A program made the translations under genes and the position numbers. A stretch of DNA of 64,000 nucleotides from Marivita geojedonensis (lineage in GTDB: Bacteria > Pseudomonadota > Alphaproteobacteria > Rhodobacterales > Rhodobacteraceae), in the NCBI RefSeq assembly GCF_002115805.1, contig NZ_JFKC01000001.1, forward strand, positions 558,001-622,000. The letters run 5' to 3'. Below are positions 4,068 through 34,980 of this stretch, piece after piece. How positions within the stretch are numbered: position 1 is the first letter of the stretch; the number at the start of each line of letters is the position of its first letter. The notes under the pieces were generated by a model. The model was not told the DNA's origin, searched no databases, and worked only from the letters and a program-made list of their open reading frames with translations.

Positions 4068-4069
4068 GA

Positions 4070-4936
4070 TCAGTTGTCCAAGTTCTTGCCGACGATCCGC
4101 ATCAGGAAGATCGCGACGATGTTTGCAAGGATGATGGCGTAGACACCACCGGCTGAGCCAAGTCCCACGTTCTGGCTTTCCAGCACCCGCTGGAAGATCA
4201 GGTAAGACAGGGTACGGGTTCCGAACGCACCGCCTGTGGTGACGAAAATCTCGGCAAAGATGGCCAGAAGGAAGATCGTCTGGATAAGGATCACGATTGT
4301 GATCGCGCGGCTCAGATGCGGAAGAACGATATAGGCAAAGCGCTTCAGAACAGGGGCACCATCCATTTCGGCAGCTTCCAACTGTTCGCTGTCAAGCGAC
4401 TGGATTGCCGTCAGCAGGATCAGCGTTGCGAAAGGCAGCCACTGCCAGCTCACGATCATGATGATCGACTGCAGCGAGGCGTCCGACAACCAACTGATCG
4501 GATCGGCTCCAAAGAAGCGCCACAAATGCGCCAGGAGACCGTTCACCGGGTCCATGAACATGTTTTTCCAGACCAGAGCTGAAACGGTCGGCATCACAAA
4601 GAATGGGGCGATGACAAGGATACGAACAACACCCTGCCCCCACATCGGCTGATCCAAAAGAATGGCCAGCAGGATGCCCAAACAGACGGTAATCACAAGC
4701 ACGCCAAGAACAATAACCAGAGTGGTCTGCACTGCAGGCCAGAACGCGCTGGAACTGACGAACCGTACGTAGTTGTCAAACCCGGTCCACCCCTGATCAC
4801 CACCGCGCAGCGGCAGATAGGTGCGGAACGAAAACCAGAGCGTCATGATCAGCGGAACCAACATCCAGCCCAGAAGCAGAATAACCGCCGGGGCCATCAT
4901 AAGTCGGGCCGCTGATCGGGATGCTTTCGTCGCCAT
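4070..4936 (-). CDS. smoF: polyol ABC transporter permease 1
   Basis: MalF-type inner-membrane permease of 288 residues with about six membrane helices and the EAA loop QLEAAEMDGAPVLKRFAYI. I chose ATG at 4936 (protein begins MATKASRS) because a strong ribosome site GGAGGAG lies about 9 bases upstream; the reading frame is open to 5002, but that longer start adds a polar, non-conserved extension and has no ribosome site. It is separated from smoE by 139 bp containing a strong hairpin and an AAACGTTT palindrome. Confidence 0.91.
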   Translation of the reverse strand: MATKASRSAARLMMAPAVILLLGWMLVPLIMTLWFSFRTYLPLRGGDQGWTGFDNYVRFVSSSAFWPAVQTTLVIVLGVLVITVCLGILLAILLDQPMWGQGVVRILVIAPFFVMPTVSALVWKNMFMDPVNGLLAHLWRFFGADPISWLSDASLQSIIMIVSWQWLPFATLILLTAIQSLDSEQLEAAEMDGAPVLKRFAYIVLPHLSRAITIVILIQTIFLLAIFAEIFVTTGGAFGTRTLSYLIFQRVLESQNVGLGSAGGVYAIILANIVAIFLMRIVGKNLDN

Positions 4937-5005
4937 GGGATACATCTCCTCCGTTGCCAGCCCGTCGCAGGATACCGCGCTGTCCGAATAGAACCACTTC
5001 AAAGT

Positions 5006-5019
5006 GGAAACGTTTAAAT
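5006..5019. promoter_or_regulatory. possible LacI-family operator between smoE and smoF
   Basis: GGAAACGTTTAAAT contains the perfect palindrome AAACGTTT with the central CG usual for LacI/GalR operators. The same GGAAAC half occurs at 6464 (GGAAACTTTTAAG) and at 7559 (GGAAACTTTACA), on both sides of the LacI-type gene. Use by that regulator is inference. Confidence 0.4.
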
Positions 5020-5030
5020 GGAGTGGGGTG

Positions 5031-5059
5031 TCAGGGGGCGGCGCGGGGCCGCCCCCTGA
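5031..5059 (-). terminator. strong hairpin after the binding-protein gene
   Basis: Perfect 12-bp inverted repeat TCAGGGGGCGGC / GCCGCCCCCTGA around a 5-base loop, 16 bp after the smoE stop. No U-tract follows, so it probably acts as a 3' stabiliser or partial terminator. Such elements raise binding-protein mRNA over permease mRNA in ABC operons (for example malE-malF). Confidence 0.75.
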
Positions 5060-5075
5060 AGGTCAAGCCCGAAGT

Positions 5076-6383
5076 TTAGCGGTAGCCAGCGGCTTCCATA
5101 ACTTCTGTCGCAATCGCCTGTGCTTTGGCAAGCGCCTCGTCCACGGTCTGCTGACCAGCATAAGCTGCGGAGAATTCCTGGCTGACTTCTGTCGCCATGC
5201 CTGCGAATTCCGGGATCGCGACGAACTGGATACCGACATACGGCACCGGATCGACGGTCGGATCGGTCGGATCAGCTGCGTTGATCGAGTCGAGCGTCAT
5301 CTTCGCAAACGGAACATCCTGGTATTCAGGTGTCTCGTAGAGAGACGTCCGCGCACCCGGAGGAACGTTGGCCCAGCCTTCTTTCGCTGCAACCAGTTCG
5401 ATGTACTCTTTGGATGTAGCCCACTCGATGAACTGCTTAGCTGCCGCTTCTTTCTGGGTGCCTGCCGGGATGGCAAGAGCCCATGCCCACAGCCAGTTGG
5501 CGCGCTTTTCGACGCCTTCGGCGTTGGGAGCCAGCGCGAATCCGACATGCTCAGCAACGGTCGAGTCGTTGGGGTTGGTCACGAAGGACGCCGCAACGGT
5601 CGCATCGATCCACATGCCGCACTTGCCCTGCTGGAACAGCGACAGGTTTTCGTTGAAACCGTTGGTCGCAAAACCTTCCGGGCCGTAGTCGTTCATCAGG
5701 TTAACGTAGAAATCCAGTGCGGCTTTCCACTCCGGCTGATCGAACTGAGCGTTCCACTCTTCGTCGAACCACCGTGCGCCAAACGAGTTACCTGTTACAG
5801 TGATGAACGCGCCGCCTTCACCCCAACCGGCCTTGCCGCGCAGGCAGATGCCATTGATGTCGTTGGCCGGATCATCCATCGCCGCAGCGGCTTCACGGAT
5901 GAACTGCCAGGTCGGTGCATCCGGCATGTCCAGACCTGCTTTTTCCATCAGGTCGGTGCGGTACATGACCATGGAGCTTTCGCCATAGAACGGTGCCGCA
6001 TAGAGCGTGCCGTCATGGGAGAGACCGCCGCGCATCGCGGGCAGGATGTCATCTACGTCATATTCAGCGGACAGATCGTCCAGCGGAACGAGCCAGCCGT
6101 TGGCGCCCCAGATCGGGGTTTCGTACATGCCGATTGTCATGATGTCGAACTGACCACCTTTGGTGGTGATGTCCGTGGTCACACGCTGACGCAGCACGTT
6201 TTCCTCAAGGGTTACCCACTCGACTTCATGGCCGGTCTTGGCTGTGAAGTCGTCGGTATAACCCTGCATGCGGATCATATCGCCATTGTTCACTGTCGCG
6301 ATAGTGATGGTTTCTGCATACGCGCCGCTTGCTGTGATCAGAGAAAGCGCCGTGGCCGCACGGAGTGCGTTTCTGAAAGACAT
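5076..6383 (-). CDS. smoE: polyol ABC transporter substrate-binding protein
   Basis: Periplasmic family 1 extracellular solute-binding protein of 435 residues with a Sec signal peptide (MSFRNALRAATALSLITASGAYAE). It should capture sorbitol/mannitol and deliver it to SmoFG. The typical SBP_bac_1 features are present: an aromatic-rich pocket region, the PFYGESSMVMYRTDLMEKAG segment near 155-175, and an LFQQGKCGMWIDA stretch near 250. The start is supported by GGGAGG six bases upstream. It is the first transporter gene after the regulator and is followed by a hairpin likely to favour its over-expression. Confidence 0.92.
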   Translation of the reverse strand: MSFRNALRAATALSLITASGAYAETITIATVNNGDMIRMQGYTDDFTAKTGHEVEWVTLEENVLRQRVTTDITTKGGQFDIMTIGMYETPIWGANGWLVPLDDLSAEYDVDDILPAMRGGLSHDGTLYAAPFYGESSMVMYRTDLMEKAGLDMPDAPTWQFIREAAAAMDDPANDINGICLRGKAGWGEGGAFITVTGNSFGARWFDEEWNAQFDQPEWKAALDFYVNLMNDYGPEGFATNGFNENLSLFQQGKCGMWIDATVAASFVTNPNDSTVAEHVGFALAPNAEGVEKRANWLWAWALAIPAGTQKEAAAKQFIEWATSKEYIELVAAKEGWANVPPGARTSLYETPEYQDVPFAKMTLDSINAADPTDPTVDPVPYVGIQFVAIPEFAGMATEVSQEFSAAYAGQQTVDEALAKAQAIATEVMEAAGYR

Positions 6384-22545: not shown

Positions 22546-22860
22546 TCAAAGGCGCCAGGCCCAAAGCCAATTCCTCGACGCGCTGCACAAGGGTGAACCC
22601 AAATCCTGATTCACACCGAGCGTGCATGAGCAGTCAAAGGTTCACCTCAGGATTTGTGGACACGGCTCCCGGAACATCGCAGGATAGAGTTGGTCATGCA
22701 GCTTGAGCACTTTCAACAAAGGCTGGATGCTGCAGGTCCGGAGCAAGCCACGAAACGGGTGCCTTGAATTCCATACCCCTGTGGCGCTCTGAAATCTCTG
22801 CGCCATGTGGCGAATGCTGCGCCGTAAGGAAAAACGATTGCCGACGGATATGGAAAATCC
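22546..22860. other. non-coding gap with a TTGA-N6-TCAA box
   Basis: No convincing gene is seen in this 315-bp gap. It contains TTGAGCACTTTCAA at 22703-22716, a perfect Crp/Fnr-type dyad half-site pair, 145 bp before the next start codon; no clear -10 lies at the expected spacing, so this is the weakest of the six boxes in the island. Confidence 0.45.
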
Positions 22861-23574
22861 ATGAGAAGAGACGCTTCCCTAGCGTCCGCAATCGTCATGT
22901 CCATGACGATGTCGCTGGCTGCGCAGGAAAATGGTTTGACGGCTGACGACCCACCGGCCTTTCAATGCCCGTCTGGCCATTTGGAAGTATATGCAACAGA
23001 TCCCGAATTGGCGCGCCGCATTTGCGACATTGAGAAACAGACAGCCCCGACCCTCGCCGCCTGTGGCATGTCGGATCGTACACCGCTCAGTCTTTACGTG
23101 GTGCAGCGGATCGAAGCGGCAGGACCTCACTGTCTTGGTGCGTATATCTGCGAAACCGATGAAATTGCCGTTGTTGCCCCAGAGCAGCTTGCCACGCTCG
23201 AAGTGCTGTCTGACATCTACCGCTCCATGGATGCGGCAGTCCTGTTTGACAGCCTTGTGGTGCATGAGATCACCCACGCGCGGTTGACCAAGGCGCTGCA
23301 GGGCGAGGAACTCAGCGTCGCTTCCCATGAATACATTGCTTACGCTATGCAGATGGCATCGTTGCCCAGCGCCGTTAGACAAAGCTTGGAAGACGTCCGC
23401 GCCGAGGGTCCAGTGGACCGTTCGGCCATAAACGAATTGACACTCTTCTTTGGTGGACCCGATGCCTTTGCGCCCTTGGTCTGGCGGCACTTTCAGACAG
23501 ACGGAAACGGATGTGATTTCGTAAAATCGCTGATCGATGGAACCACCATATTGGGTCTGCCGCCGGACAGCTGA
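22861..23574 (+). CDS. secreted HExxH protein, paralogue 1 (DUF6639-like)
   Basis: A 237-residue predicted periplasmic protein with a short signal peptide ending AAQE. It carries the zinc-metallopeptidase motif HEITHA (about residue 138) followed some 30 residues later by HEYIAYAMQ, whose Glu could be the third ligand of a gluzincin-like site. Cysteines recur in pairs, and the tail has VWRHF...GCDFVKSLIDG. Two paralogues with the same order of motifs lie at 24772-25521 and 33124-33804. I recall this family as DUF6639, but the name should be verified. No substrate is known; peptidase activity is inference. Confidence 0.8.
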   Translation: MRRDASLASAIVMSMTMSLAAQENGLTADDPPAFQCPSGHLEVYATDPELARRICDIEKQTAPTLAACGMSDRTPLSLYVVQRIEAAGPHCLGAYICETDEIAVVAPEQLATLEVLSDIYRSMDAAVLFDSLVVHEITHARLTKALQGEELSVASHEYIAYAMQMASLPSAVRQSLEDVRAEGPVDRSAINELTLFFGGPDAFAPLVWRHFQTDGNGCDFVKSLIDGTTILGLPPDS

Positions 23575-23789
23575 GACGAGGTCGCCTGCGAGACCCCATC
23601 ATCGCCCTGCCCCGCGCAGCGCAGACCAGGCTCATGCAGCTGAATAGGTGGGATCTCATCCGGATAGGAGGTTGCAGAACCACATCACGTGTCTGCATCT
23701 CACAGTCCCTTAAGCAACTTGTCCCACCTGGAGACCACGCAGGTCGCCGCCTGTGACAGTCTCCGCCCGCCGAGCGGGCAGCGCCCGGT

Positions 23790-23838
23790 TTGATACATGT
23801 CAAACACGGAATGTTTCGAAACACATATACTCTCCAGA
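23790..23838 (+). promoter_or_regulatory. Crp/Fnr-type class II promoter
   Basis: TTGATACATGTCAA (23790-23803) has perfect TTGA/TCAA halves. A -10-like TATACT lies at 23826-23831. With a start near 23838 the box centre is at -41.5, exactly class II Fnr/Crp geometry. The leader then forms the hairpin TCTCCA-GAGTG-TGGAGA (23831-23847) just before the ribosome site. Confidence 0.7.
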
Positions 23839-23868
23839 GTGTGGAGAAATCCTGGGGAGGAGGGATCT

Positions 23869-24309
23869 ATGCAAGAGCTATCACACAAGACCATGGCTGC
23901 GCTGGCTTTCGGCGCGTCACTTGTTCTGCCGACGCTGGCGGTATCGGATGGCATGTCCGATGAAGAAGCGATCCTGGGGATCTGGTCGACATACACGGAG
24001 GCACGGGTCGACGGTGATGCGGAGACTTGGCTGAGCCTTTGGGACAAAGAGGGCATCCGGATGCCGCCCGGTGTTCCAGCGGTTGACTATCAGACCTTTG
24101 CGCCGGGAACCGCGAAGCGGTTTGCCAATCCGCCAAAGTCGATGGACATCAACTCCGAAGAAATCGTCATTGCAGATGAGTGGGCCTACTCGCGCGGCAC
24201 GTTTACGGTCAACGATGCAGTGGAGGGGAAGTTTCTGACGATTTTCCGCCGTCAGGATGATGGATCGTGGCGGATCTATCGTGACTCGTTCAGCATGAAT
24301 AGCGAGTGA
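23869..24309 (+). CDS. secreted NTF2-like (SnoaL/DUF4440) protein
   Basis: A 146-residue protein with a signal peptide (to about residue 26, PTLAVS) and one NTF2-like cone domain: ILGIWSTYTEARVDGDAETWLSLWDKEG, then a variable middle, and the closing FLTIFRRQDDGSWRIYRDSFS, typical of the SgcJ/DUF4440 group. Such domains bind small ligands or act as isomerase-like folds; no catalytic role can be assigned. ATG 23869 has the very strong ribosome site GGGGAGGAGG. It is driven by the Crp/Fnr-type promoter at 23790 and closed by the terminator at 24377. Confidence 0.85.
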   Translation: MQELSHKTMAALAFGASLVLPTLAVSDGMSDEEAILGIWSTYTEARVDGDAETWLSLWDKEGIRMPPGVPAVDYQTFAPGTAKRFANPPKSMDINSEEIVIADEWAYSRGTFTVNDAVEGKFLTIFRRQDDGSWRIYRDSFSMNSE

Positions 24310-24376
24310 TCGGCACGCCCCCCGGGTCAGCACGATCCGAACGGTGGGGCAGTAATAATTGCCGATTTTAAGACGG

Positions 24377-24441
24377 CTGGTGGCACCGCAGGGTGGTCTT
24401 TCCTGTCCCGAAGACCATCTCGGTGCCACCAGTGTCTTTTT
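24377..24441 (+). terminator. rho-independent terminator
   Basis: CTGGTGGCACCG (24377-24388) pairs with CGGTGCCACCAG (24421-24432), enclosing a second stem GGTGGTCTT/AAGACCATC; TGTCTTTTT follows. It ends the transcript of the NTF2-like gene. The remaining gap to 24771 (330 bp) shows no supportable feature. Confidence 0.85.
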
Positions 24442-24771
24442 GTTACCGCGGTCTCTCTTGTGTGGCTCTGACCTTAGTCAGAACGCCGTCAGCGCGGAAG
24501 CCATGACGGTCCTGCCACTGAACGCACTCCCGAAATCGCGGCAGCCAGTCGGGTGCGCAACACGGTCTACCCGCAAGCGGCGAGCCATTGTGAGAGCATG
24601 TTTGTCAGGGCGAGCAGGCTTTTTTCGGGGGTGTGGGAAATGCACGCTGTCCCTCGAATCACCGATGGGACTGCGTAATCTGAGCGGGAGCGTAGCGTTG
24701 CTGCAGTGCGAGGAACCCCAGACATGGGATCATCGCCTTTTGTTGAGGAAGCCTGCGGCACATCGCGGTTC

Positions 24772-25521
24772 TCAGTCCCAGAGGGTGTTGAACAGCAAGT
24801 CACCGCGAATGATCCGGTCCACGAGATCCGAATCTGCACCCTCCTGGTCGAAATGCATCCACGCCATGGCAGCAAAATGGATGGGGGAGAACTGCAGCAG
24901 GGACGCACTGATCTCATCGAAGACAATCGGGGCTGCAATTTGGGCCTTCTCGAGGATCCGGATGCGGTCCGCCTCGGGCAGAAGGTCCAATTGGATGGAA
25001 TAGGCCAGGTACTCATGAGCAACCCGCGGCAGGAACCGGCCCGAGCTGTGCTGGTCGATATGCGCATGCACAAGCTCATGGACCAGAACTGTCTCGAACA
25101 GCAGATCCGGCTCCATCTCGGCAAACCCGATCGAATGAGCCGTTTGATCCTGCAGGCAGCTTCTGGACAGGATCTGCAGCTTCTTCTCCATGGCATTATA
25201 CAGGCCGACGCAGACACCCTGAGCCACATCCAGCGCGCTGGTGATCTCGACACGGGCAGGCTCAAGCATTTCGAAACCCAGTTGCGCGAGCCGGGCATGT
25301 GTCTTGTCGATGATTGCGCAGGCCAGATCGGCCTCCTGCGGATCCTCTGCAGAGACCGAGAACGCACCACTGTGACAGGAGACGACAGGCGTTTCGGCCA
25401 GCGCAGGCCGGGTCAGCACACTCAACAGGCAGAGAGTCAGAGTGAGGGCTCTGAAGCCGTCCATCACCACGGAGCGTGCCGGCAGGATCGGGGGTTTGAT
25501 ATCGGGGGTCAACCGCTGCAT
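24772..25521 (-). CDS. secreted HExxH protein, paralogue 2
   Basis: A 249-residue predicted exported protein; the hydrophobic signal segment is ALTLTLCLLSVLTRPALAE at about 25-43. The metallopeptidase motif is HELVHA near 152, followed by HEYLAYSIQLDLLP, and a C-terminal AMAWMHF...SDLVDRIIRGD, all colinear with the paralogues at 22861 and 33124. ATG 25521 is supported by TAAGG; ATG 25464 would give a shorter signal peptide. It is downstream of, and in the same direction as, three cytochrome c genes, which suggests joint expression. Function unknown. Confidence 0.8.
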   Translation of the reverse strand: MQRLTPDIKPPILPARSVVMDGFRALTLTLCLLSVLTRPALAETPVVSCHSGAFSVSAEDPQEADLACAIIDKTHARLAQLGFEMLEPARVEITSALDVAQGVCVGLYNAMEKKLQILSRSCLQDQTAHSIGFAEMEPDLLFETVLVHELVHAHIDQHSSGRFLPRVAHEYLAYSIQLDLLPEADRIRILEKAQIAAPIVFDEISASLLQFSPIHFAAMAWMHFDQEGADSDLVDRIIRGDLLFNTLWD

Positions 25522-25817
25522 TTGGGCCTTACTTTAGGGTCTGAACACAGGGCAATCGAGGGGCAACCGGGCCTTTGCAGGCATAAGACACCTCTTTTGG
25601 CGGGCACATTTGTGCCAAAAACCAAAGACAGATGCCTCCCACCAGCTACACGTGCGCACAGCCACAACCCAAGGCAGCTCATGCACTGTCCTGGGCCAGA
25701 TTATCTTGGACCAAAACGCGCGACAGGGCCGAAGAGGCTGCTCACGGAGGAGACGCAGAGCGAGCAGCCTCTGGCACATGATGTTTTTGCGCCAGGGCGC
25801 AGGGGAAAGGACCGATG

Positions 25818-26228
25818 TTACTCCTGGATGGAGGACAGGTATTCCACCAAGGCCAGAACCCGATTCAAGGCGTAGGCGCGCGCTTCGGTCCAGGAATAAT
25901 GGGCTGTCGGGTCATCCTGCATCTCGGTCATATACCGATCACCCCAGATCGGCATATCCCGTCCGCCATGGACAGCGACATCAGCCGTGCCATCGATAAT
26001 CGCGTACACATCCGCGATGGGGAATACCCCCCCGTTCATCTTGCTCAGGACAGTGAGGTCTGGCGGCGTGTTCAGGAGCTGTGAACTGACAGGTCCATCT
26101 CCTTTGCCATCCTGTCCGTGGCACACCGCACAGGAGTTGGAATATTCGATGGCCCCGAGATCTTGCGCATTGGCAATAGATCCAAGCAGCACCACCAGCC
26201 CGCAGGCCAAAACTCCCCTTTTCAACAT
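25818..26228 (-). CDS. small mono-haem cytochrome c, paralogue 1
   Basis: A 136-residue class I-like cytochrome c with signal peptide (ends ANAQ). Haem attachment is CAVCH (about 33-37) in the longer motif CHGQDGKGDGP, and the likely axial methionine is in DMPIWGDRY (about 91-99). It shares PPDLT, FP and the C-terminal VEYLSSIQE with three other cytochromes in this island. The start has GGGAGG six bases upstream. It should be a periplasmic electron carrier; donor and acceptor are unknown. Confidence 0.9.
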   Translation of the reverse strand: MLKRGVLACGLVVLLGSIANAQDLGAIEYSNSCAVCHGQDGKGDGPVSSQLLNTPPDLTVLSKMNGGVFPIADVYAIIDGTADVAVHGGRDMPIWGDRYMTEMQDDPTAHYSWTEARAYALNRVLALVEYLSSIQE

Positions 26229-26642
26229 GGAACACCTCCCATTGGTCTTCAGTTAAATCCAACGTCGCAGAACCGACCGACAACTCTTGAACACCCGAAA
26301 AACCCAACCTGACATATGCGTCGCCCAGCGACCGCCCGCCTGTCACAGCTGGCACGGCGGAGCTGTGCACTTCGACGGCCACGGCGTCTTGGTAAACGCC
26401 CGCGCGTCTGGTTCGACATCTCGCCCCCAAATCAGGCCCAAATCAGGCCATGTGACAGGCTGTGCGCATCCCCCTGGGCGCAGAACGACAGGCAAGACCT
26501 GCCGGCCCCTCAAACCGGGCGGCACGACACATCCCGCACCCGATATCCGAGACGCATGCCTTTGGGCACCCACGACAGGTGTCGCGGCAGAGACCCTCCG
26601 GTAGCTCGACGCAAAGCGCTCTGCCACCGACCTGTTGCCGAC
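26229..26642. other. 414-bp intergenic region without a supported gene
   Basis: It lies between two tandem cytochrome genes. One open frame covers 26343-26627 on the minus strand, but its composition is proline/arginine-rich and resembles nothing I know. A short direct repeat of AAATCAGGCC occurs at about 26430-26452. Nothing else is seen. Confidence 0.5.
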
Positions 26643-27038
26643 CTATTCCTGGATCGTCTCGAGATAATAGGTCAGCGATAGAATGCGCCCGAGGGCCACC
26701 ATCTCTGCCGTTTCCCCACTCCGGCTGGTGGCTGAGGCTTGAAAGCGGTCCCCCCAGACCGGCATCTCGCTCCCATGCACCGGGATCACGTTTCTCCGGT
26801 CAATCATGAACAGCGTGTATTCAAACGGGAATTCACCATCATTTCGCGCGGCCAGCGTCGTGAGATCCGGCGTATGGATGTTCAACAACCCCGCCAAAGG
26901 ACCATCACCCTTCCCGGATTCGCCATGACATCCGGCACAGGCAATCATGTATTCCTTTTGGCCGGAACTCTCCTGCGCGTTTGACGGCAAGCATGACAAA
27001 CCCAAGAAAACTGATGCTACGAGAATACCAAACTTCAT
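26643..27038 (-). CDS. small mono-haem cytochrome c, paralogue 2
   Basis: A 131-residue exported cytochrome c with signal peptide ending SNAQ. Haem site CAGCH (about 34-38) followed by GESGKGDGP, then PDLTTLAARNDGEFPF and axial Met in EMPVWGDRF; the C terminus is YYLETIQE. GGAAGG precedes the ATG. It has the same architecture as the genes at 25818, 27215 and 27791, indicating local duplication. Confidence 0.9.
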   Translation of the reverse strand: MKFGILVASVFLGLSCLPSNAQESSGQKEYMIACAGCHGESGKGDGPLAGLLNIHTPDLTTLAARNDGEFPFEYTLFMIDRRNVIPVHGSEMPVWGDRFQASATSRSGETAEMVALGRILSLTYYLETIQE

Positions 27039-27214
27039 TTTGACATCCTTCCCTTGTTGATATCGACGTCACCTGGCTGAATGGACACCCTTCACGCCAT
27101 GCGCGCTGAGTGCCTGTGGTTTCGGGACTCACCGGAAACGACGGGTTCGGCGTTTCCGGGATCAGGAGACGCGGCAGGCAAGAGACCGTGCCCGCATCGA
27201 CCCCGCACCGGTCG

Positions 27215-27637
27215 CTATTTTTGAATGGACTCGAGATAGAGCACGACGGAGAAGATCCGCCCGGCAGCGATCTCCAGGGCGTCCCCGGGAGAGACACCGC
27301 GGTCTTCCAAAGTATCCGCCAGGAAATAATCACCCCAGACAGGCATCTCGGAATCCCCGTGCCCTGGCTGGTCCATCCCCGCTGCGATCAATTCGTAGAC
27401 ATCCGAAAACGGAAAGGACCCACCGGCGCGCGCAGCCAGAGTCGTCAGATCCGCTGGCGGCACCTTGAAGAGCTCGGCAATCTCACCACCGCCGGATGCA
27501 TCCGGTCCATGGCACAGCGCACACCGCGCGGTAAACGTGGATTTGCCCAATGTTATCTCAGATTCCTGTGCCTGTACCTGCGCAATTGGGGCAGACAGAC
27601 ATATCGCTAGTACAACGGCTTTGGCTCGGTTCATCAT
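27215..27637 (-). CDS. small mono-haem cytochrome c, paralogue 3
   Basis: A 140-residue exported cytochrome c. I start at ATG 27637 (MMNRAKAVV, ribosome site GGGAGG); the frame is open to 27721 but the extension carries no signal features. Haem site CALCH near 38-42. The following segment GPDASGGGE departs from the GKGDGP of its paralogues. PADLTTLAARAGGSFPF, EMPVWGDYF and YLESIQK are conserved. It is divergent from paralogue 4 across a shared Crp/Fnr-type box. Confidence 0.9.
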   Translation of the reverse strand: MMNRAKAVVLAICLSAPIAQVQAQESEITLGKSTFTARCALCHGPDASGGGEIAELFKVPPADLTTLAARAGGSFPFSDVYELIAAGMDQPGHGDSEMPVWGDYFLADTLEDRGVSPGDALEIAAGRIFSVVLYLESIQK

Positions 27638-27692
27638 CAATCCTCCCTTTGTGTCGAGCTCAAGACCTCCAATCTTGAAGTCGACCCATTGA

Positions 27693-27762
27693 AGGGTACC
27701 GCGCTCAAAACATAGTGACATTGAGATATGTCAAAGCGCGTCAGGACCTGAGTCCCTAGCAT
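27693..27762. promoter_or_regulatory. shared Crp/Fnr-type box with divergent promoters
   Basis: TTGAGATATGTCAA is at 27721-27734. On the plus strand a -10-like TAGCAT lies at 27757-27762, and on the minus strand TACCCT at 27698-27693. Both are placed so the box centre would be at about -41.5, so one site could activate both cytochrome genes. Confidence 0.65.
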
Positions 27763-27790
27763 CACCAGACTTTTATGGGAGGTGCAAAAA

Positions 27791-28261
27791 ATGCCGGAAC
27801 GCAAAATCAACGTCACCACGCTGTCGCCGAATTTGGGGTCAGGCCTGCGCGCACTCTGTTGTCTTGCGGCGCTTGCTGTCGCGCCGATCTCCGTGTCTGC
27901 CGAGGAAGACCTCATTGGCGCTGACGAATATGAGGCGGCCTGTTTGGCGTGTCATGGGGTTGGCGGCAAAGGCGATGGCCCGATGGCAGAATACCTGTCG
28001 GTCACACCTTCGGACCTGACGGCAATCGCCAAGAACAATGAAGGTGTGTTTCCGCTCCTCGAAATCTTTCAGATCATCGATGGCCGCACGGAACTTGGAG
28101 CCCATGGCGTCCGGCATACGGAAGGCTGGGAAATGCCCATCTGGGGGGATCGCTACAAGGAACAGGCCGGCAGCAAATACGGCCCATACGGGAGTGAGCA
28201 GGCGGTTCGGGCGCGGATCCTCGAACTGGTCTTCTATCTCCAGGCCATCCAGCAACAGTAA
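27791..28261 (+). CDS. small mono-haem cytochrome c, paralogue 4
   Basis: A 156-residue exported cytochrome c. ATG 27791 has GGGAGG eight bases upstream. After the signal peptide (ends SVSAEE) comes CLACH (about 53-57) with GVGGKGDGP, PSDLTAIAKNNEGVFPLL, then the axial Met region WEMPIWGDRY and C-terminal FYLQAIQQQ. An insertion (GVRHTEG) before the MPIWG motif distinguishes it from the other three. It is the first gene of a plus-strand unit that continues into the NAD-synthase-like gene. Confidence 0.9.
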   Translation: MPERKINVTTLSPNLGSGLRALCCLAALAVAPISVSAEEDLIGADEYEAACLACHGVGGKGDGPMAEYLSVTPSDLTAIAKNNEGVFPLLEIFQIIDGRTELGAHGVRHTEGWEMPIWGDRYKEQAGSKYGPYGSEQAVRARILELVFYLQAIQQQ

Positions 28262-28439
28262 CACGCCACCTCGACTGCGCTGCGGGACAGATACCGCGAC
28301 GCGCGGCGGTCACGTTTGACCGTCGGGGTCGCCTTGGACCAGCGCCAGGGTGGGAGGATTTCGGCACCCGGCCGAAGTTCTCGATTTTGGCGTGAGGAGA
28401 GCACTGCCCAATCAGGATGCCCCGTTCGGAGACATATCT

Positions 28440-29419
28440 ATGAGACCTCTTGAGATTGATGCCGATCGAGCCATCGAGGCCATCTGCAACGCCATCTCCG
28501 AGAAGGTCACGCGCGACATGTCAGAAGGTGTCATACTCGGGTTGAGCGGCGGGCTTGATTCCTCGGTTTTGGCCGCCCTTGCCGTCAAGGCCCTTGGCGC
28601 CGGGAAGGTGACGGTTGTCTATCTCTTCGACCGCGACAGCGATGCCGGAATTGGCCGCAACGCCCGGCTGATGGCGCAGCATCTGGGTCTTGAGCTGGAG
28701 ATCCTGGATATTTCGGAGGAGATGAAAAACTCCCAGGTCTACAAACCGCTCTTCATCAAGCTGTTAAGACTCTCTCCCCTGATCGCAAAACTCAGCGCCG
28801 GGAGCTATCGCGTCATTTGTGGAGAGAGCCCGTTTAAATCGACGCTGCGTGTTGGGCGCGGGGAACATCTCAGCCCGTGTACAAAAGACTCCTCTTTGGA
28901 ATGACGATGCATCATGTCGATTCCGGCTTTGCAGCCCGGCACAAATATCGCCGTGTGTTGCTTGAGCGCTTGGCCCTGGAACGCAAACTGTCCCTCATTG
29001 GCGCAGCCAACCTCTCGGAATGTGACGTGGGCTGGTTTGTAAAAGACGGTATCGACGATCTCCCGTTTCAACCCTTGACTGGCCTTTACAAGACACAGGT
29101 ACGCCAATTGGCGAAGGCGCTTGCGCTGCCCTCGGAGATATCCACGCAACTTCCCTCGCCGGACATGGCGAAAGGTGTGACCGATGAGTTCGGGATTGGA
29201 CATGACTACAGCGTGGTGGACCAAGTGATCGACGGGGTCGACAGAGGCCTGACCGCTCAGGACATCGCCAAGCTGGGCATTCCCCTGGGCGAGATCACCG
29301 ATATCCAGGAGCTGATGCAGCTGTCGGATTGGAAACGCCAGTCTCCGCATGAGGCGCCCCCCGTCGATGGGAAACTGGCCGGCGGGCTGAGACGGACGAC
29401 AGAAGGCCAAGGCTCTTAG
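28440..29419 (+). pseudogene. nadE: NAD synthase-like gene with a frameshift
   Basis: Two overlapping frames together encode one NadE-like ATP-pyrophosphatase of about 325 residues. The first frame (28440-28906 region) has the P-loop GLSGGLDSS and runs to GRGEHLS. Homology then continues in another frame with VYKRLLFGMTMHHVDSGF, GAANLSECDVGWFVKDGIDD and LYKTQVRQLAKAL, ending at 29419. The switch lies between 28838 and about 28886 and fits loss of one base. No X-XXY-YYZ slippery heptamer is seen. So it is a recent pseudogene, a sequencing error or, less likely, a recoded gene. ATG 28440 has GGAG upstream. Confidence 0.75.
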
Positions 29420-29678
29420 CTGAGACCAGGATTGCCGTTCTGCGGATCCTCGCAGGACGCGAGAGTCCGGGACAGGTATGCGCCGTGGTGGACGGAGCAT
29501 TCAAGACATCCCGGCGGACAGATGACCCGCGATTGCGGGATCCCGCAGCAACAGAGTCTGGCTGAACGCAACGGCGGGACATGGACTGCGACACGCCCTG
29601 CACAGATCTCAGCGAAGCGCCGGCCATGAAGCCGGATCCGCCATTCTGAGCGGATCCGGGTTGTGCAAGGGAGCGTGT

Positions 29679-29837
29679 TTACGCGCCCGGGATCACGCTG
29701 CAGTCACTGGCATCCATGTCAAGGACAGGGTCATTTGGACCACACTCCTCTTCGCTCACCGGATATGTCCCTGTCTCGGTACATCCTGTGATCGCGAAGA
29801 TCAGTGCCAGCAGGGCGGAATATGCAATATGTTTCAT
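29679..29837 (-). CDS. small lipoprotein of 52 residues
   Basis: ATG 29837 preceded by AAGGA encodes a type II signal peptide with lipobox AITGC (Cys19) and a short mature part containing EEECGPNDPVLDMDASDC, ending VIPGA. The mature protein would be 34 residues with two further cysteines. It sits 115 bp downstream of the rhodanese gene on the same strand and is likely co-transcribed. Function unknown; I believe similar tiny lipoproteins occur in other Rhodobacteraceae, but cannot verify this here. Confidence 0.72.
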   Translation of the reverse strand: MKHIAYSALLALIFAITGCTETGTYPVSEEECGPNDPVLDMDASDCSVIPGA

Positions 29838-29952
29838 AGTGGTTCCTTTTTCAGTTTGAGGTCAGGAAAGAGCAGAGACCGGGGGAGATCCGCGCGACGC
29901 GGCTTTGATCGGGCAAAGCTCCGAGAGCCCAACAGCGCCCGAGCAACATGGA

Positions 29953-30879
29953 TCAGAACGTCACCTTTTGGTCTGTGATGTGCCCCGTGTGAGTCCACTC
30001 GGCCATCGACCCATCAAAGAGCAGGGCGTTTTTGTTGTTCAGCAGCTCATGGCTCACAAACCAGCCGATACTGGCCAAGTGGCCTGTATTGCAGAAGTTG
30101 ATCTGTGGATCCGTGAGGGACACTCCGGCTGCCGCATAGAGGGCCGCGAGAGCATCGGACTCCCGGAACGACCCTTTTGCATCAACCGTCAGCCAGCTGT
30201 GAGGAAGATTCACCGAGTTCGGGATGGTCCCGGCGGTTTTGGCAGCCCCTGATTTTGTAATGCCCAAGTGGAAGTCACGGGTGCGATTATCGACCGGCAC
30301 CACACCTGTCGCCACCATGATCTCGACGTCGTCCGCGGTGAGAAGCATGTGCTCTCTTGGCTTGGCGACAAAGGACGCCGAACCCCTATCGACCTTGCCT
30401 TTTTGCAGGGGGTTGAGAGGGATCTTCTTGTCATCCAGCTCCTTGAGATAAGCGGCCATGCCGCCATCCAGAATGGAGAGCTCATCATGGCCCAAATAAC
30501 TCAAGGTCCAGTAGACTCGGGTCGCGGCACCCATGTCCGATGAGCTGGTCCCGCCAGGGATCAGCACGATATGATCGTCGTTCGAAACACCAATCCTCCC
30601 GAGATGCGCCGCAATCTGCTCCGGCTCGCGCACCAGCCCCCGCACCTGTCCAACCTTCATGCGCCACTGGTCCTTGGGACCACCATATTGGGTATGCACG
30701 GCGCCAGGAATATGGCCGTCCAGATACGCGCCCCCACTCCGCAGATCGACAAACACCACATCTTCGCTGTCGAGGTTTTCCGTCACCCATGCCACATCAA
30801 CCAGAGGGTCGGCCGCATGGGCAAAACTCGCAAGGCTAAGCGCTGCAGCGGTGACTGCCAGGGATAGTGGATAGGTCAT
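29953..30879 (-). CDS. periplasmic two-domain rhodanese (sulfurtransferase)
   Basis: A 308-residue sulfurtransferase exported by a Sec signal (ends FAHAAD). The first rhodanese domain (about 25-150) has VDLRSGGAYLDGHIPGAV but lacks the catalytic Cys. The second domain (about 180-300) has the active loop CNTGHLAS with Cys near 262. This is the thiosulfate/3-mercaptopyruvate sulfurtransferase layout, here in the periplasm, so it could transfer sulfane sulfur from thiosulfate or persulfides. GGGAGG supports the start. A perfect Fnr-type box lies 113 bp upstream. Confidence 0.9.
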   Translation of the reverse strand: MTYPLSLAVTAAALSLASFAHAADPLVDVAWVTENLDSEDVVFVDLRSGGAYLDGHIPGAVHTQYGGPKDQWRMKVGQVRGLVREPEQIAAHLGRIGVSNDDHIVLIPGGTSSSDMGAATRVYWTLSYLGHDELSILDGGMAAYLKELDDKKIPLNPLQKGKVDRGSASFVAKPREHMLLTADDVEIMVATGVVPVDNRTRDFHLGITKSGAAKTAGTIPNSVNLPHSWLTVDAKGSFRESDALAALYAAAGVSLTDPQINFCNTGHLASIGWFVSHELLNNKNALLFDGSMAEWTHTGHITDQKVTF

Positions 30880-30991
30880 GGTGTCCTCCCGTCAGGATGC
30901 GAGGAGATGGCAAGACTTCAGGCCACGTGACGCAACGACCGAACAGCAAACCCTCGCACCAGCAAGCTTCCACGTTCGAAAACCATTGTTG

Positions 30992-31005
30992 TTGATATGA
31001 ATCAA
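30992..31005. promoter_or_regulatory. Fnr-type box upstream of rhodanese
   Basis: TTGATATGAATCAA matches the full Fnr/Dnr consensus TTGAT-N4-ATCAA. It is upstream of the minus-strand rhodanese gene; the -10 at class II spacing is not obvious. Confidence 0.65.
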
Positions 31006-31570
31006 AACGGAGAACCGGCGCTATCCCAGTCCTGGGTATGGCAGGACGGTTTTTGAGCCCTCCATGAAGAGCGGATGCGCGGGTTTCGCCGTCCTGGACG
31101 CTTGGCCGGTTCGCCGGTGCATCCAAAACCGGTCTGAACCTGGGCGGTTTGGGTGTTTCGGGAACCCAGGTCAAGGGATAGGGAGATGCGTTCAGCCCTA
31201 GCCGTGCTTCATGAGGCGCCCAGTGTCGTTCCCCGGACAGGTCACGGGTAACCCCGCCTTAGGAGCATGGACGAAACCATCAATCACAGCCGGGAACACC
31301 TCGACCGGTGCGCGCGCGTGCCGCGCGAACTGCGGCTTGGCAAACACCGGTTTGAGGCCAAGCGTCACAAGCTGAAATCAGGCTTGGAATGGAGTCCAGA
31401 GAGTGTCGGCCTTCACGGCTCAAGCCTTCTGGGGCAAATGTCCTGCACCTGCGCATGCACAGCGCAGGACGCCCTGAAGCGCGATCGACCCGACGCGCGG
31501 CGATCGGACCCAAAGACCGAGCTGGTGAGTCATGGCCGCGATTGGAAACCGCGGCCAGAGCAGAGAAGCG
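31006..31570. other. 565-bp intergenic region
   Basis: Between the rhodanese control region and the end of the di-haem cytochrome gene I see no convincing gene. A hairpin GCTTGGC/GCCAAGC is at 31335-31363. Several open frames exist on both strands but all have the skewed composition expected of chance frames in GC-rich DNA. Confidence 0.5.
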
Positions 31571-32407
31571 CTATTCCGGATCCGGGAGAGGCGGCAGTTG
31601 CCGCAGATACAAAACAACAGCGTCCAGATCTGTTTCGGTCATCGAGGCATAATACCCATATCCCATGGGAGGCATCATGGGACTGCCATCCGGTCGCTTG
31701 CCCTGGGTGATCATCATCTTGATCTCGTCGTCCGTATACCCTGCGAGACCGTCCTCATGACTTGTCAGGTTTGCGGAAACCGAGGTTCCCCATGGCCCAT
31801 GAAACGGAAACCCGCCAGCGCCAAGATGTGTATCCAGCATCGGGCCCATGGGACCCGGCGTCGAATGGCATTCCACGCAATGAGCAACCGGGCCTGCAAG
31901 ATACTCCCCATATTCGACAGTCACAGCGGCAGGGATGGCGGCGACGCTCTCGATGGGCGGGCCATAGGCCGGTGGGAGGGGAATATTATAGGTCGAGAAA
32001 GGTGTTGTATTGTCACTTGCAGGGACGGTCCGGAGAAACATGACGATCGACATGAGATCATCGTCTGAGAGACCGCGATACAGTCCAATCGGCATCGGAG
32101 GTCCAATAACAGAGCCATTAGGTCGGATACCCTCCCGGATGGCGCGCGCAAGTTCTGCGTCAGTCCATTCCGCAACACGGCTCCCCGGCGTAATGTTGAC
32201 AGCCCAGGCCTCGAACGCCTCTGACTTCTCCACCATGAATCCGCCGAGCTCATTTGCCATATCGGGTCCGTTTGGACCCTGCGGTGTGTGACAATTGCCG
32301 CAGGCCGCTGGCCCGCGAACCAGGTATTCACCGCGCTCCAGGCTGGGCTCAGCCGAAACCGCGATGGGCAGCACCATGACCAGGGCTGCAAGTAGATCGT
32401 TTCGCAT
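31571..32407 (-). CDS. di-haem cytochrome c
   Basis: A 278-residue exported protein (signal ends VSAEP) with two cytochrome c domains: CGNCH at about 36-40 and CVECH at about 179-183. Candidate axial methionines are in GPPMPIGLYRGLSDDDL and SPMMPPMGYGYYASMTETDL. The layout resembles di-haem cytochromes associated with periplasmic dehydrogenases and with membrane cytochrome c oxidase donors. It may receive electrons from the small cytochromes of this island; that link is inference. GGGGGA precedes the ATG. Confidence 0.9.
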   Translation of the reverse strand: MRNDLLAALVMVLPIAVSAEPSLERGEYLVRGPAACGNCHTPQGPNGPDMANELGGFMVEKSEAFEAWAVNITPGSRVAEWTDAELARAIREGIRPNGSVIGPPMPIGLYRGLSDDDLMSIVMFLRTVPASDNTTPFSTYNIPLPPAYGPPIESVAAIPAAVTVEYGEYLAGPVAHCVECHSTPGPMGPMLDTHLGAGGFPFHGPWGTSVSANLTSHEDGLAGYTDDEIKMMITQGKRPDGSPMMPPMGYGYYASMTETDLDAVVLYLRQLPPLPDPE

Positions 32408-32759
32408 AGATGGTCCCCCGTTTCGTGAGGCACGCTTGTTTTTGATATAGTCTGCGCGCTCTCTGCTCTCATGCTACCCGATCCTGGCGGTTTCGCCTAA
32501 TCCCGCGTTTCCCGGCCTCGGCCAAAGCCCGACACCAATCTCGACATGGCCGCACCTCTCACCCGCTTTTGGGAGGTGATGGACCAAAACAGACCAATCC
32601 CACCTCCAGCAGCCCCTCGAGACACATGAGACGGGGGCGCTGCCTTGACCGATAACCCAACCGCGCTGCTCGTTCAGAGGATAGGACCGGCTGAAATAGA
32701 GCTTGTCACAGAAGCTTCTTTTGCGATTATTGAGACATGCACGAACAGGGAGGTCTCAA
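32408..32759. other. 352-bp divergent intergenic region
   Basis: This separates the di-haem cytochrome (minus) from the DUF2892 gene (plus). It holds two incomplete Fnr-like halves, TTGATATAG near 32440 and TTGAGACATG near 32739, but no full dyad. No gene is seen. Confidence 0.45.
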
Positions 32760-32963
32760 ATGACCGTAGAACGTTCAATCCTTTTGATCGTTGGTGTTGT
32801 GGTTCTTGGCAGTGCACTTCTTGCAGCGTTCCATAACCCGAATTGGCTTTGGCTGACGGGTCTCATGGGTGCACACCTGATCCAGGCATCGTTTACGGGG
32901 ATGTGCCCCGTTGTCATGACATTGAAGAAACTCGGGCTTCCCACGAAAGCCGGATTTGCGTGA
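32760..32963 (+). CDS. DUF2892 (YgaP-type) inner-membrane protein 1
   Basis: A 67-residue protein with two membrane helices (ILLIVGVVVLGSALLAAF and WLTGLMGAHLIQASF) joined by the NPNW turn, then the conserved CPVVMTLKKLGL. This is the DUF2892 membrane module that is fused to a rhodanese in E. coli YgaP; here it is a separate protein. GGGAGG lies seven bases before ATG 32760. It is followed by the third HExxH gene. Confidence 0.85.
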   Translation: MTVERSILLIVGVVVLGSALLAAFHNPNWLWLTGLMGAHLIQASFTGMCPVVMTLKKLGLPTKAGFA

Positions 32964-33123
32964 CGTCCTGTGTCGAACGACGCGGTTCGGCGCTTTGGTC
33001 AGAATGGGGCACATGCGCCAGGCTTTGAGCGATTGGCGCAGAACTGGTTCTGTGCAACGGCGTCACTTCATATCCAAGCTGTCTCCCGAGCAGAGTCAGC
33101 AAGGCAGGTCCAACAGGCGACGA

Positions 33124-33804
33124 GTGTGGAAAACCGGGATCTGCGCGGCCTTGGCCAGTCTTCTGGTTTCGTCGGTTTACGCCGATGACCTCCAAACCTG
33201 TTCAGATAGGCAGTTTTCTGTCGAGGCGCCAAATGACGAGTTGCTTGAAACGCTCTGTCACGCCGCACCGCGCATCCGGGACACGCTTTCAGACTGCGGG
33301 CTGACCCAGACGAGACCCTTGACGATCAAGGTTGTGGACGAGTTGAGCCACAAGATTGGAAACTGCCTCGCGTGGTTTGATTGCGATCACGACTCCATCC
33401 GGCTGACCAATCCCGCCCGTTATCCAGAGGTTATTGACCAGGACAGCCCCTATGCCACGCTGCCAGCGGATGTCTTGCTGGAAAATGCGCTCACGCACGA
33501 ACTGGTGCATGCCCTCATTACGCAAAGTGCAAATGGTCGCGAAGTATCCCTGATTGATCACGAATACATTGCGGCCGCACTTGAGCTCGAATTGATGGAG
33601 CCTCAATGGCGCGATGTGTTGATTTCTGCAGCTCCCGTGTCGCTGCCGCCAAAAACTGGGCTGATCGACATTTGGATCTATGGGCTGGAGCCCCGCAAGT
33701 TTGCGACCAATGCATGGCAGCATTTCAGTTTGCAGCAGAACGGTTGCGGATTGGTGGAACGCATCGTTCAAGGGGACGAGACACTGTCCCGGAGTTCACG
33801 ATAA
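33124..33804 (+). CDS. secreted HExxH protein, paralogue 3
   Basis: A predicted exported protein of about 226 residues. GTG 33124 gives a textbook signal peptide (WKTGICAALASLLVSSVYA then DD) and a length like the paralogues; the frame is open from 32956, so ATG 33004 or 33013 are alternatives. It contains HELVHALI (HExxH), then HEYIAAALELELMEPQW, and a C-terminal NAWQHF...GCGLVERIVQGDE. Cysteines C...C before and after match paralogue 1. It follows the DUF2892 gene. Predicted zinc peptidase-like; function unknown. Confidence 0.78.
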   Translation: MWKTGICAALASLLVSSVYADDLQTCSDRQFSVEAPNDELLETLCHAAPRIRDTLSDCGLTQTRPLTIKVVDELSHKIGNCLAWFDCDHDSIRLTNPARYPEVIDQDSPYATLPADVLLENALTHELVHALITQSANGREVSLIDHEYIAAALELELMEPQWRDVLISAAPVSLPPKTGLIDIWIYGLEPRKFATNAWQHFSLQQNGCGLVERIVQGDETLSRSSR

Positions 33805-33954
33805 CGGACCCCGACAACGGCCTGTCCACGCGACGGGAACGTGACATCGCAGGGGCACATGCCTGATGCCCACGACATGCCTTCAGCGCCGAGTCACGTC
33901 CGGAGGTGATGTCGAGGCCCGACGCGGACAGTCCCAAACCCCTGAGCGATCGCG

Positions 33955-33996
33955 TTGACCCACATCAACGCAATCACGTCCCAAAACACGTTTACT
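33955..33996 (+). promoter_or_regulatory. Crp/Fnr-type class II promoter
   Basis: TTGACCCACATCAA at 33955-33968 is followed by TTTACT at 33991-33996, which places the box centre at about -41.5 from a start near 34003. The downstream gene begins at 34022 or 34028. Confidence 0.6.
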
Positions 33997-34021
33997 GGGC
34001 ACGTGTTTCAAAAGGGGGGAC

Positions 34022-34243
34022 ATGCAGATGGCAACCGGAAAAGCGGGGCGTGTTGGACCACTGGATCGGATCATTCGGCTGATCCTGGCACTGGTACTTC
34101 TAGGGTTTGCACTATTCTGCCCATTTGCACAGGCGCTTGGGCCCGTTGTTGTTTGGATAAGCGGGTTTCTGGGGGTTGTGCTGTTTATGACGGCGTTCAT
34201 CGGTCGATGCCCCATCTATCAATTGGCGGGCATGCACACGTAA
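34022..34243 (+). CDS. DUF2892 (YgaP-type) inner-membrane protein 2
   Basis: A 71-73 residue membrane protein with two helices (IIRLILALVLLGFALF and VVVWISGFLGVVLFMTAF) and the family tail FIGRCPIYQLAGM with its single conserved Cys-Pro. ATG 34028 is better spaced (8 bases) from GGGGGG than ATG 34022. It is the second free-standing YgaP-type module of the island and sits under its own Crp/Fnr-type promoter. With the separate periplasmic rhodanese it could form a split YgaP-like sulfur-transfer system; this is inference. Confidence 0.85.
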   Translation: MQMATGKAGRVGPLDRIIRLILALVLLGFALFCPFAQALGPVVVWISGFLGVVLFMTAFIGRCPIYQLAGMHT

Positions 34244-34456
34244 AGATCCGGCAAGGACAAACCTCACACGTCGAGACCCAAGAACGAATAGTCCGCCGGT
34301 GACGCCTTGGCTGGTTGCCGTGACCGCGTCCTGGCCTTTAATGACGCCTCAATAGCGCGGGTACTGTTGACGCAGAGTAGAGCCCGATCAACCCGTCGCT
34401 GCGGGCACCAGAAAAGTTATGGAGACGGAAAATCCGGTAGAAAGGTCAGCATTGCT

Positions 34457-34591
34457 CACTTGATTTATGTGCGTTCTGTGGGACGCTTCTTGCGTTGCGG
34501 ACTCATCGGTCCGAGCTCCCAAGTGAAGGGGCCTGCGCCCACCCCACCTCTTTCCTAGGCGGAGGCCCCTTCTTCATCGGTGCGGTTTTTT
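34457..34591 (+). ncRNA. possible structured small RNA or leader
   Basis: CACTTG (34457-34462) pairs with CAAGTG (34520-34525), enclosing smaller hairpins such as GGAC-TCATCG-GTCC (34499-34512). Directly after comes a 15-bp stem with one mismatch, GAAGGGGCCTGCGCC (34525-34539) with GGCGGAGGCCCCTTC (34558-34572), whose 18-base loop is C-rich (CACCCCACCTC...). A run of six T follows at 34586-34591. No open frame explains the pairing. I cannot match it to a known RNA family. The remaining parts of the 533-bp gap 34244-34776 hold only the box at 34695. Confidence 0.4.
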
Positions 34592-34694
34592 GCATGAGGA
34601 CGCCCTAAAGACATGCGGCATCGAAGGTCCGCTGAAGCAAGTGCAAACAGAAATGCCTGGGCCCGAATGTGCGAAAGGCGTTCACAGCATTGCA

Positions 34695-34708
34695 TTGATG
34701 TTGATCAA
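34695..34708. promoter_or_regulatory. Fnr-type box upstream of the 67-residue orphan
   Basis: TTGATGTTGATCAA fits TTGAT-N4-ATCAA exactly. It is centred 75 bp before ATG 34777. The -10 at class II spacing (CACACT, 34731-34736) is weak. Confidence 0.6.
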
Positions 34709-34776: not shown

Positions 34777-34980
34777 ATGACAGGCATGAAGTATGTTTGG
34801 AAGATCACTGCGCGCGGCGACCAGGGAAGCACGGAACGCCCGCCGTGCTACGCCTATGCAGGCAGCATGCGGGAGGCCTTGGAATTGGCGGGTGAGCCCG
34901 ATGCCATTGCGACACCTCAAGTTGGTCGAGAATGGCACAGCCTCATGGACGGTCGGCGCGTTTGGCGTGAAGAACCCTAA
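34777..34980 (+). CDS. 67-residue protein of unknown function
   Basis: A small soluble protein without signal peptide or membrane segment, beginning MTGMKYVWKITARGDQG and ending SLMDGRRVWREEP. A GGAGG ribosome site lies 11 bases before ATG 34777. I recognise no family. The case for a real gene rests on the ribosome site, the perfect Fnr-type box upstream and the balanced amino-acid composition. It is convergent with mscS. Confidence 0.6.
   Translation: MTGMKYVWKITARGDQGSTERPPCYAYAGSMREALELAGEPDAIATPQVGREWHSLMDGRRVWREEP

Follow-up and report, generated by a model that had tools for sequence, protein, structure and literature searches.

Within a 64,000-nucleotide stretch of Marivita geojedonensis DNA (positions 558001–622000 of contig 1 in a draft genome of 4.31 Mb; hereafter the window), an island of exported cytochromes, HExxH proteins, a rhodanese and DUF2892 membrane proteins is interspersed with palindromic boxes resembling the operators of FNR-type regulators. 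The locus raises the question of which regulator reads these boxes and whether the genes behind them form a regulon of their own. A sequence-only reading had proposed an undescribed redox regulon responding to anaerobiosis or nitric oxide (NO). The results presented here suggest instead that the island is rather likely a species-specific, local enlargement of the ordinary FnrL/Dnr regulon.

Boxes and promoter register in the island

All six perfect TTGA-N6-TCAA boxes named in that reading (22703, 23790, 27721, 30992, 33955 and 34695) were recovered, each upstream of a gene; the box at 27721 lies between two divergent cytochrome genes. The window as a whole holds eight perfect boxes, compared with a mean of 1.44 and a maximum of four in 100 dinucleotide shuffles. 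In the genome (4,313,167 bases in 73 contigs), 114 loose boxes were counted against 20 for the reversed pattern, which was used as the control for box counts. At genome density, 0.32 loose boxes are expected in 12,006 bases, giving a Poisson P for at least six of 1.1e-6, or approximately 4e-4 once corrected for all possible 12 kb placements. The earlier estimate of fewer than 0.1 chance motifs per 12 kb was too low, the expectation being 0.32 from genome density and approximately 0.27 when scaled from the shuffles. A genome-wide box density equal to that of the island would have refuted the proposal, which survived this comparison with a 19-fold excess over the genome average.

The strict FNR form, TTGAY-N4-RTCAA, occurs 46 times genome-wide, compared with one occurrence of its reversed control. 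Four strict boxes lie in the island (23790, 30992, 33955 and 34695; Poisson P 1.0e-5, approximately 4e-3 corrected). The boxes at 22703 and 27721 fit the loose form only and are singly weaker, with 68 non-strict sites in the genome against 19 control hits.

Hexamers resembling a -10 element that place the box centre at -41.5 were confirmed at three boxes, namely TATACT (5/6) at 23790, TAGCAT (4/6) at 27721 and TTTACT (4/6) at 33955; a match of at least 4/6 is reached at 1.3% of positions. At 27721, TAGCAT faces cytD and a weaker hexamer, TACCCT (3/6), faces cytC (27637), and the in-register hexamer at 34695 reaches 3/6.

Family A2 cytochromes and DUF6639 proteins

Four of the island cytochromes (25818, 26643, 27215 and 27791) belong to one family of small monohaem cytochromes c, here called family A2, with 40–41% identity to 26643. 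A fifth copy lies at C1:355k (48% identity to 26643), and the genome contains 11 copies in total, seven of them outside the island. C15, C18, H19 and M73 are invariant in 58 aligned sequences, which corresponds to a class I cytochrome c with one CxxCH and a distal Met, and the C-terminal motif is HG..MPxWGD...SIQ. Pfam and NCBIfam searches with tested members returned generic matches only, mostly below cut-off (for Pfam, at or below the cut-offs except one), and matches in a PDB profile search were mostly limited to the haem-motif half. Among 295 genomes, one per genus of the bacterial family, family A2 was present in 185 at E 1e-15, and the highest copy number, based on 15 candidates scored per genome, was that of the window's genome. 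The family was also found in all 16 congeners, with 1 to 5 copies each. No description of family A2 as such was found in the open-licence literature.

The upstream regions of family A2 genes were analyzed in two samples. The first comprised the best 80 of 94 confirmed loci, from Alpha-, Beta- and Gammaproteobacteria and a few other groups; two loci filed under Klebsiella bins were taken for contamination. A perfect box was located within 300 bp upstream of the estimated start in 28 of the 91 family A2 genes with at least 200 bp of upstream sequence, compared with 21 of 634 control genes taken from the same loci at distances above 2.5 kb (Fisher p 5e-15), and the reversed pattern preceded 1/91 and 0/634 genes, respectively. 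A looser earlier count with neighbours included had given 29/94 family A2 genes and 59/1027 genes. In the second sample, 29 genomes with loci chosen by protein score, 14 loci had a perfect box, 22 had a box when up to one mismatch was allowed, and none had the reversed pattern. Because the samples share species, their 42 boxed promoters represent 38 distinct ones. Of these, 36 have Y and R at the inner box positions, and a -10 match of at least 4/6 at -41.5 was observed in eight of the 38, compared with at most six at any of 30 other offsets. This signal is positive but modest, and the TAnnnT count at -41.5 ties with that at -40.5 (six each). Judged from sequence, the conserved part of the island is this small exported monohaem cytochrome family, which is both widespread and box-linked.

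When the dihaem cytochrome was handled alike, none of 20 genes (31571 included) had a perfect box and 2/20 had a site at one mismatch. A box link of this protein was rejected, and exported cytochromes as such are therefore not box-linked. In the window's own genome, a perfect box lies within 300 bp of 4 of the 10 family A2 copies scored, one such box being common to 27215 and 27791; the box of the C1:355k copy lies beyond that distance, and the eleventh copy fell outside the scored set.

Three loci from gammaproteobacterial metagenome-assembled genomes (L105, L112 and L131) carry at least two family A2 members and several perfect boxes per contig and are candidate hypoxia clusters. Genes read as FixLJ-like were seen in L105 and L112, and an FNR-like gene in L105. 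In L105, several boxed copies lie close to these genes, as would be expected of oxygen control.

The exported HExxH proteins of the island were compared with DUF6639 (PF20344, cut-off 27 bits). The products of 22861 and 33124 pass, and that of 24772 falls below but retains both HExxH and EY in the alignment. These two motifs and a pair of cysteines are conserved in 31/31 aligned sequences (alignment A3), and the gluzincin ligands, HExxH with a Glu as the third ligand, are likewise present in 31/31. A predicted model with a mean pLDDT of 89.4 resembled M1-type zinc peptidases most, but weakly, with LTA4H as the best structural match (E 0.018, probability 0.97) and none at E 0.001. DUF6639 proteins look like periplasmic zinc proteases. 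No paper on DUF6639 was found in the open-licence literature.

DUF6639 was detected at E 0.001 in 24 of the 295 genomes, 22 of them above cut-off. Family A2 was present in 24/24 of these and in 161/271 others, and at least four cytochrome copies were found in 16/24 compared with 12/271 (p 1.5e-13, with genera taken as independent and genome size ignored). Like the boxes, their statistics and the promoter register, this co-occurrence and the box conservation at the cytochrome family are direct observations. Among 30 distinct DUF6639 genes from outside the island, 5 are preceded by a perfect box, which in three cases lies 65–68 bp before the estimated start; the motif filter of this count missed locus L029. 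L066 and L115 likewise have a gene of the type of exported HExxH protein 2 next to a cytochrome gene, and DUF6639 next to a dihaem cytochrome recurs in L025; most DUF6639 loci show no adjoining cytochrome. In the window's own genome, one DUF6639 sequence stands beside a transposase-like frame on C12 (L047:7301-8071) and again, cut off, at the start of C72 (L052:74-478), owing either to recent duplication or to a repeat that broke the assembly. A second island of the kind was sought in this genome and rejected, as the DUF6639 copies on C12 and C18 sit among unrelated genes.

The regulatory switch and competing explanations

The neighbours of all 46 strict boxes were inspected (four in the island, three in locus L051 and 39 elsewhere). 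According to a crude gene caller, 16 of the 39 fall inside a frame; such frames are probably in part spurious, and the boxes in part chance or internal. Read from translations, the neighbours include genes for Usp, ccoNOQP, ccoG, fnrL with hemN, hemA, dnr with usp, tldD and a DksA-like protein; the strict box at fnrL/hemN overlaps the beginning of the fnrL frame as called. Pfam searches on two further neighbours identified an Rrf2 regulator and a Sulf_transp protein. The C5 locus contains U32 peptidases, nnrS, usp, dnr, narK and narG. In the available sections of PMC2908626, the published FNR core list is matched by the strict-box genes of this genome and the DNR core list by the C5 locus. Seven HTH_Crp_2 genes score above cut-off, and, with sub-families assigned by reading of translations, one has an FnrL-like cysteine cluster and one, Dnr-like, adjoins nnrS, narK and narG. 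Because the genes behind strict boxes elsewhere in the genome resemble those on the published core lists for FNR and DNR, the island switch is most likely the known FnrL/Dnr switch, which is also the simplest reading. A partial match to nirS reached 26.9 bits only and is not claimed. On C5 (L050), a minus-strand stretch that reads as a 1105 aa frame lies antisense to narG and illustrates a gene-calling trap in GC-rich (guanine- and cytosine-rich) DNA.

The proposed undescribed regulon was not supported. FNR/DNR core-like genes stand at the strict boxes, and cytochrome c, DUF2892 and Usp are, in the sections available, already published as FixK, NnrR or FnrL targets (PMC2908626, PMC6710368, PMC5398030). 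What stands is an accessory cluster of redox-related genes with FNR-type boxes; judged from the relatives sampled, the gene set is not a conserved pathway either. The sequence-only reading had not noticed that the small cytochrome is a widespread, box-linked family or that the HExxH family occurs together with it.

The binding regulator, gene expression and all protein functions are predictions in the following scheme. Falling oxygen, through FnrL, or NO, through the Dnr-like protein, would place an FNR-type dimer on the boxes and activate promoters of mostly class II geometry (box centre at -41.5). Two small cytochromes served by one bidirectional box, the DUF4440 protein, the periplasmic rhodanese, a DUF2892 protein and the 67 aa frame would be switched on, and perhaps also a DUF6639 protein. 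The cytochromes would most likely act as extra periplasmic electron carriers to enzymes induced by the same regulators, e.g., the cbb3 oxidase; the protease-like DUF6639 protein may contribute to turnover of haem proteins, and the rhodanese and DUF2892 proteins to sulfane-sulfur handling. A tentative and rather doubtful extension is that family A2 and DUF6639 together make up a hypoxia/NO module in Proteobacteria of sea and soil, with a multi-copy periplasmic electron-carrier pool whose haem proteins a dedicated protease of matching distribution would process or clear. If so, the window's genome would have the largest version among the 295 genomes examined.

Several observations weigh against an enlarged FnrL/Dnr regulon. 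Six island genes (24772, 25818, 26643, 31571, 32760 and 33124) lack a perfect box of their own, and no -10 is in register at two of the six boxes, 22703 (1/6) and 30992 (2/6). Perfect boxes are missing at 63/91 and 15/29 family A2 loci in the two samples, within 300 bp of 6/10 scored copies in the own genome, and at rhodanese orthologs of 51% and 42% identity. Further Crp/Fnr paralogs are encoded in the genome, and the names of the core genes rest mostly on reading of translations.

One of those paralogs leads to the best-surviving alternative, in which the boxes are operators of another Crp/Fnr protein (e.g., that of C13) and the island answers sulfide or persulfide instead of oxygen or NO. 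The C13 unit exists (L181, C13:30000-38000, at 3415-5440): a Crp/Fnr-type regulator gene stands with a DUF2892 gene, identified by Pfam, and a persulfide-dioxygenase-like gene, identified by reading of its translation, and it is possible that this unit is a sulfide-responsive system beside the FnrL/Dnr one. The island itself contains two DUF2892 genes and the exported, two-domain rhodanese, along whose chain solved thiosulfate and mercaptopyruvate sulfurtransferases were matched. Rhodanese homologs in Rhizobiales and other family genomes adjoin YeeE/YedE-type genes (some annotated, some identified by reading), and the protein therefore points to sulfur transfer. Elsewhere in the genome, the Sulf_transp (YeeE/YedE-type) gene at C73:50600 (L217) has a strict box 70 bp upstream, hinting at sulfur handling in the regulon. 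The strict boxes before cco, fnrL/hemN, hemA and dnr/usp genes nevertheless fit FnrL and Dnr, and a sulfur function for the cytochromes could not be shown, which makes this alternative unlikely.

The rhodanese box is kept in the G279 ortholog (67–68% identity) at the same distance (130 vs 126 bp). Two homologs at 32–34% identity also have a perfect box; the others among the 30 genomes listed have none or one-mismatch sites. No report linking FnrL with rhodanese, cytochrome c and Rhodobacter was found in the open-licence literature.

A dedicated anaerobic pathway, i.e., an undescribed redox system acting as a unit, would account for the grouping of exported redox proteins under one motif. The island is indeed accessory, as had been proposed, because the rhodanese is missing from 16/16 congeners at E 1e-60. 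The search for the same gene set in relatives that the sequence-only reading had suggested found it in no sampled relative, its parts occurring separately. With all cytochromes treated as a single family, none of 87 related loci carried three or more island families; this comparison left out the references for nadE_N and DUF4440, which were out of frame. Genes were clustered around 80 cytochrome loci, six rhodanese loci and L181 with a crude gene caller; a conserved gene cluster was rejected, as the cytochrome cluster spans 62 loci and the next, a generic transporter ATPase by sequence, only 12. No catalytic oxidoreductase was recognised in the island set by family searches. A pathway acting as a unit is accordingly very improbable, and no description of the gene set was found in the open-licence literature. 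Least probable of all is that the boxes are chance or decayed non-functional sites, as 22703 and 27721 outside the strict form and the missing -10 at two of six boxes might suggest, since the strict form gives one control hit in the whole genome vs four hits in the island, and the promoter register and box conservation also speak against it.

The features of the island are listed in Table 1. Its G + C content in 2 kb steps, 56.5–59.2%, is slightly richer than that of the rest of the window (49.9–57.9%), which does not decide the island's origin; a plasmid DNA match was looked for and none was found. Homology to NAD synthase is split over two plus-strand frames, 28440-28904 and 28877-29419, both matching PF02540. 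The gene is interrupted by a frameshift, which reflects either decay of this copy or an error in the draft assembly.

Table 1. Boxes and genes of the island (window coordinates).
Feature	Position	Strand	Remarks
Box 1, TTGAGCACTTTCAA	22703..22716		158 bp 5' of DUF6639 gene 22861; loose form; weakest of six
Box 2, TTGATACATGTCAA	23790..23803		strict form; -10 TATACT in -41.5 register
Box 3, TTGAGATATGTCAA	27721..27734		between divergent cytC and cytD; loose form only
Box 4, TTGATATGAATCAA	30992..31005		strict form; 113 bp 5' of rhodanese gene; without -10 in register
Box 5, TTGACCCACATCAA	33955..33968		strict form; -10 TTTACT in -41.5 register
Box 6, TTGATGTTGATCAA	34695..34708		strict form; 82 bp 5' of 34777 frame; -10 only 3/6
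Exported HExxH protein 1, DUF6639	22861..23574	+	PF20344, 46 bits (cut-off 27)
DUF4440 protein, signal-like N-terminus	23869..24309	+	PF14534, 35.6 bits (cut-off 25.2)
Exported HExxH protein 2, DUF6639-like	24772..25464	-	PF20344, 18.9 bits, below cut-off 27; HExxH and EY kept
Small monohaem cytochrome c family A2, cytA	25818..26228	-	without perfect box
Small monohaem cytochrome c family A2, cytB	26643..27038	-	without perfect box
Small monohaem cytochrome c family A2, cytC	27215..27637	-	shares box 3
Small monohaem cytochrome c family A2, cytD	27791..28261	+	shares box 3
Small lipoprotein-like frame, 52 aa	29679..29837	-	no Pfam match; 47% match in L236
Exported two-domain rhodanese (sulfurtransferase)	29953..30879	-	PF00581
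Exported dihaem cytochrome c	31571..32407	-	without own box
YgaP-like transmembrane (DUF2892) membrane protein, 67 aa	32760..32963	+	PF11127, 43.6 bits (cut-off 25.3)
Exported HExxH protein 3, DUF6639	33124..33804	+	PF20344, 40.2 bits (longer frame); in alignment A3
YgaP-like transmembrane (DUF2892) membrane protein, 71 aa	34028..34243	+	PF11127, 57.7 bits
67 aa frame without family	34777..34980	+	no family match found

An enlarged FnrL/Dnr regulon remains the preferred reading, under which the island would show how a global regulon grows in one place by acquiring further boxed members of a single family. In the Alpha-, Beta- and Gammaproteobacteria, members of an unnamed but widespread cytochrome c family are preceded by the operator of oxygen/NO-sensing FNR-type regulators, and the family's role in low-oxygen respiration is directly testable. 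DUF6639 gains a first functional lead from its co-occurrence with this family.

Comparison with known systems

DUF6639 shares HExxH and the downstream Glu with gluzincin (M1-type) zinc peptidases. It differs from them in being an exported protein of approximately 230 aa without other domains, and its structural matches did not reach E 0.001. The PF11127 transmembrane domain and the rhodanese of YgaP both occur in the island; they are fused in YgaP and separate here, the island having two stand-alone transmembrane proteins of 67 and 71 aa without a rhodanese domain.

The FixK/FixK2-NnrR systems of Bradyrhizobium and relatives share other features. In the available text, a "cytochrome c class I" is among the genes of the predicted FixK core (PMC2908626), and expression of a DUF2892 gene rises 26-fold under anoxia and is 2.7-fold lower when nnrR is mutated (PMC6710368). 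Bradyrhizobium family A2 homologs (L114 and L134) have perfect boxes; membership of ID 2551 or CycS (bll6062) in family A2 could not be shown. Clustered copies and the DUF6639 and rhodanese partners are features of the island and are absent from the FixK/NnrR text examined.

In its TTGAT-N4-ATCAA-like operator, the island agrees with the FnrL/Dnr regulons of Rhodobacter sphaeroides and Dinoroseobacter shibae. For these Rhodobacterales, the sections consulted describe boxes at -41.5 at D. shibae nosR2 and hemA3 and name the cbb3 oxidase, haem genes and Usp as targets (PMC2908626, PMC5398030). These sections list neither a rhodanese nor DUF6639, and the word "rhodanese" does not occur in the main text of either paper. 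As far as the sources available extend, the FNR-type switch, FixK control of a cytochrome c and NnrR-dependent DUF2892 expression are already known, and the family A2 cytochrome and its link to DUF6639 look undescribed.

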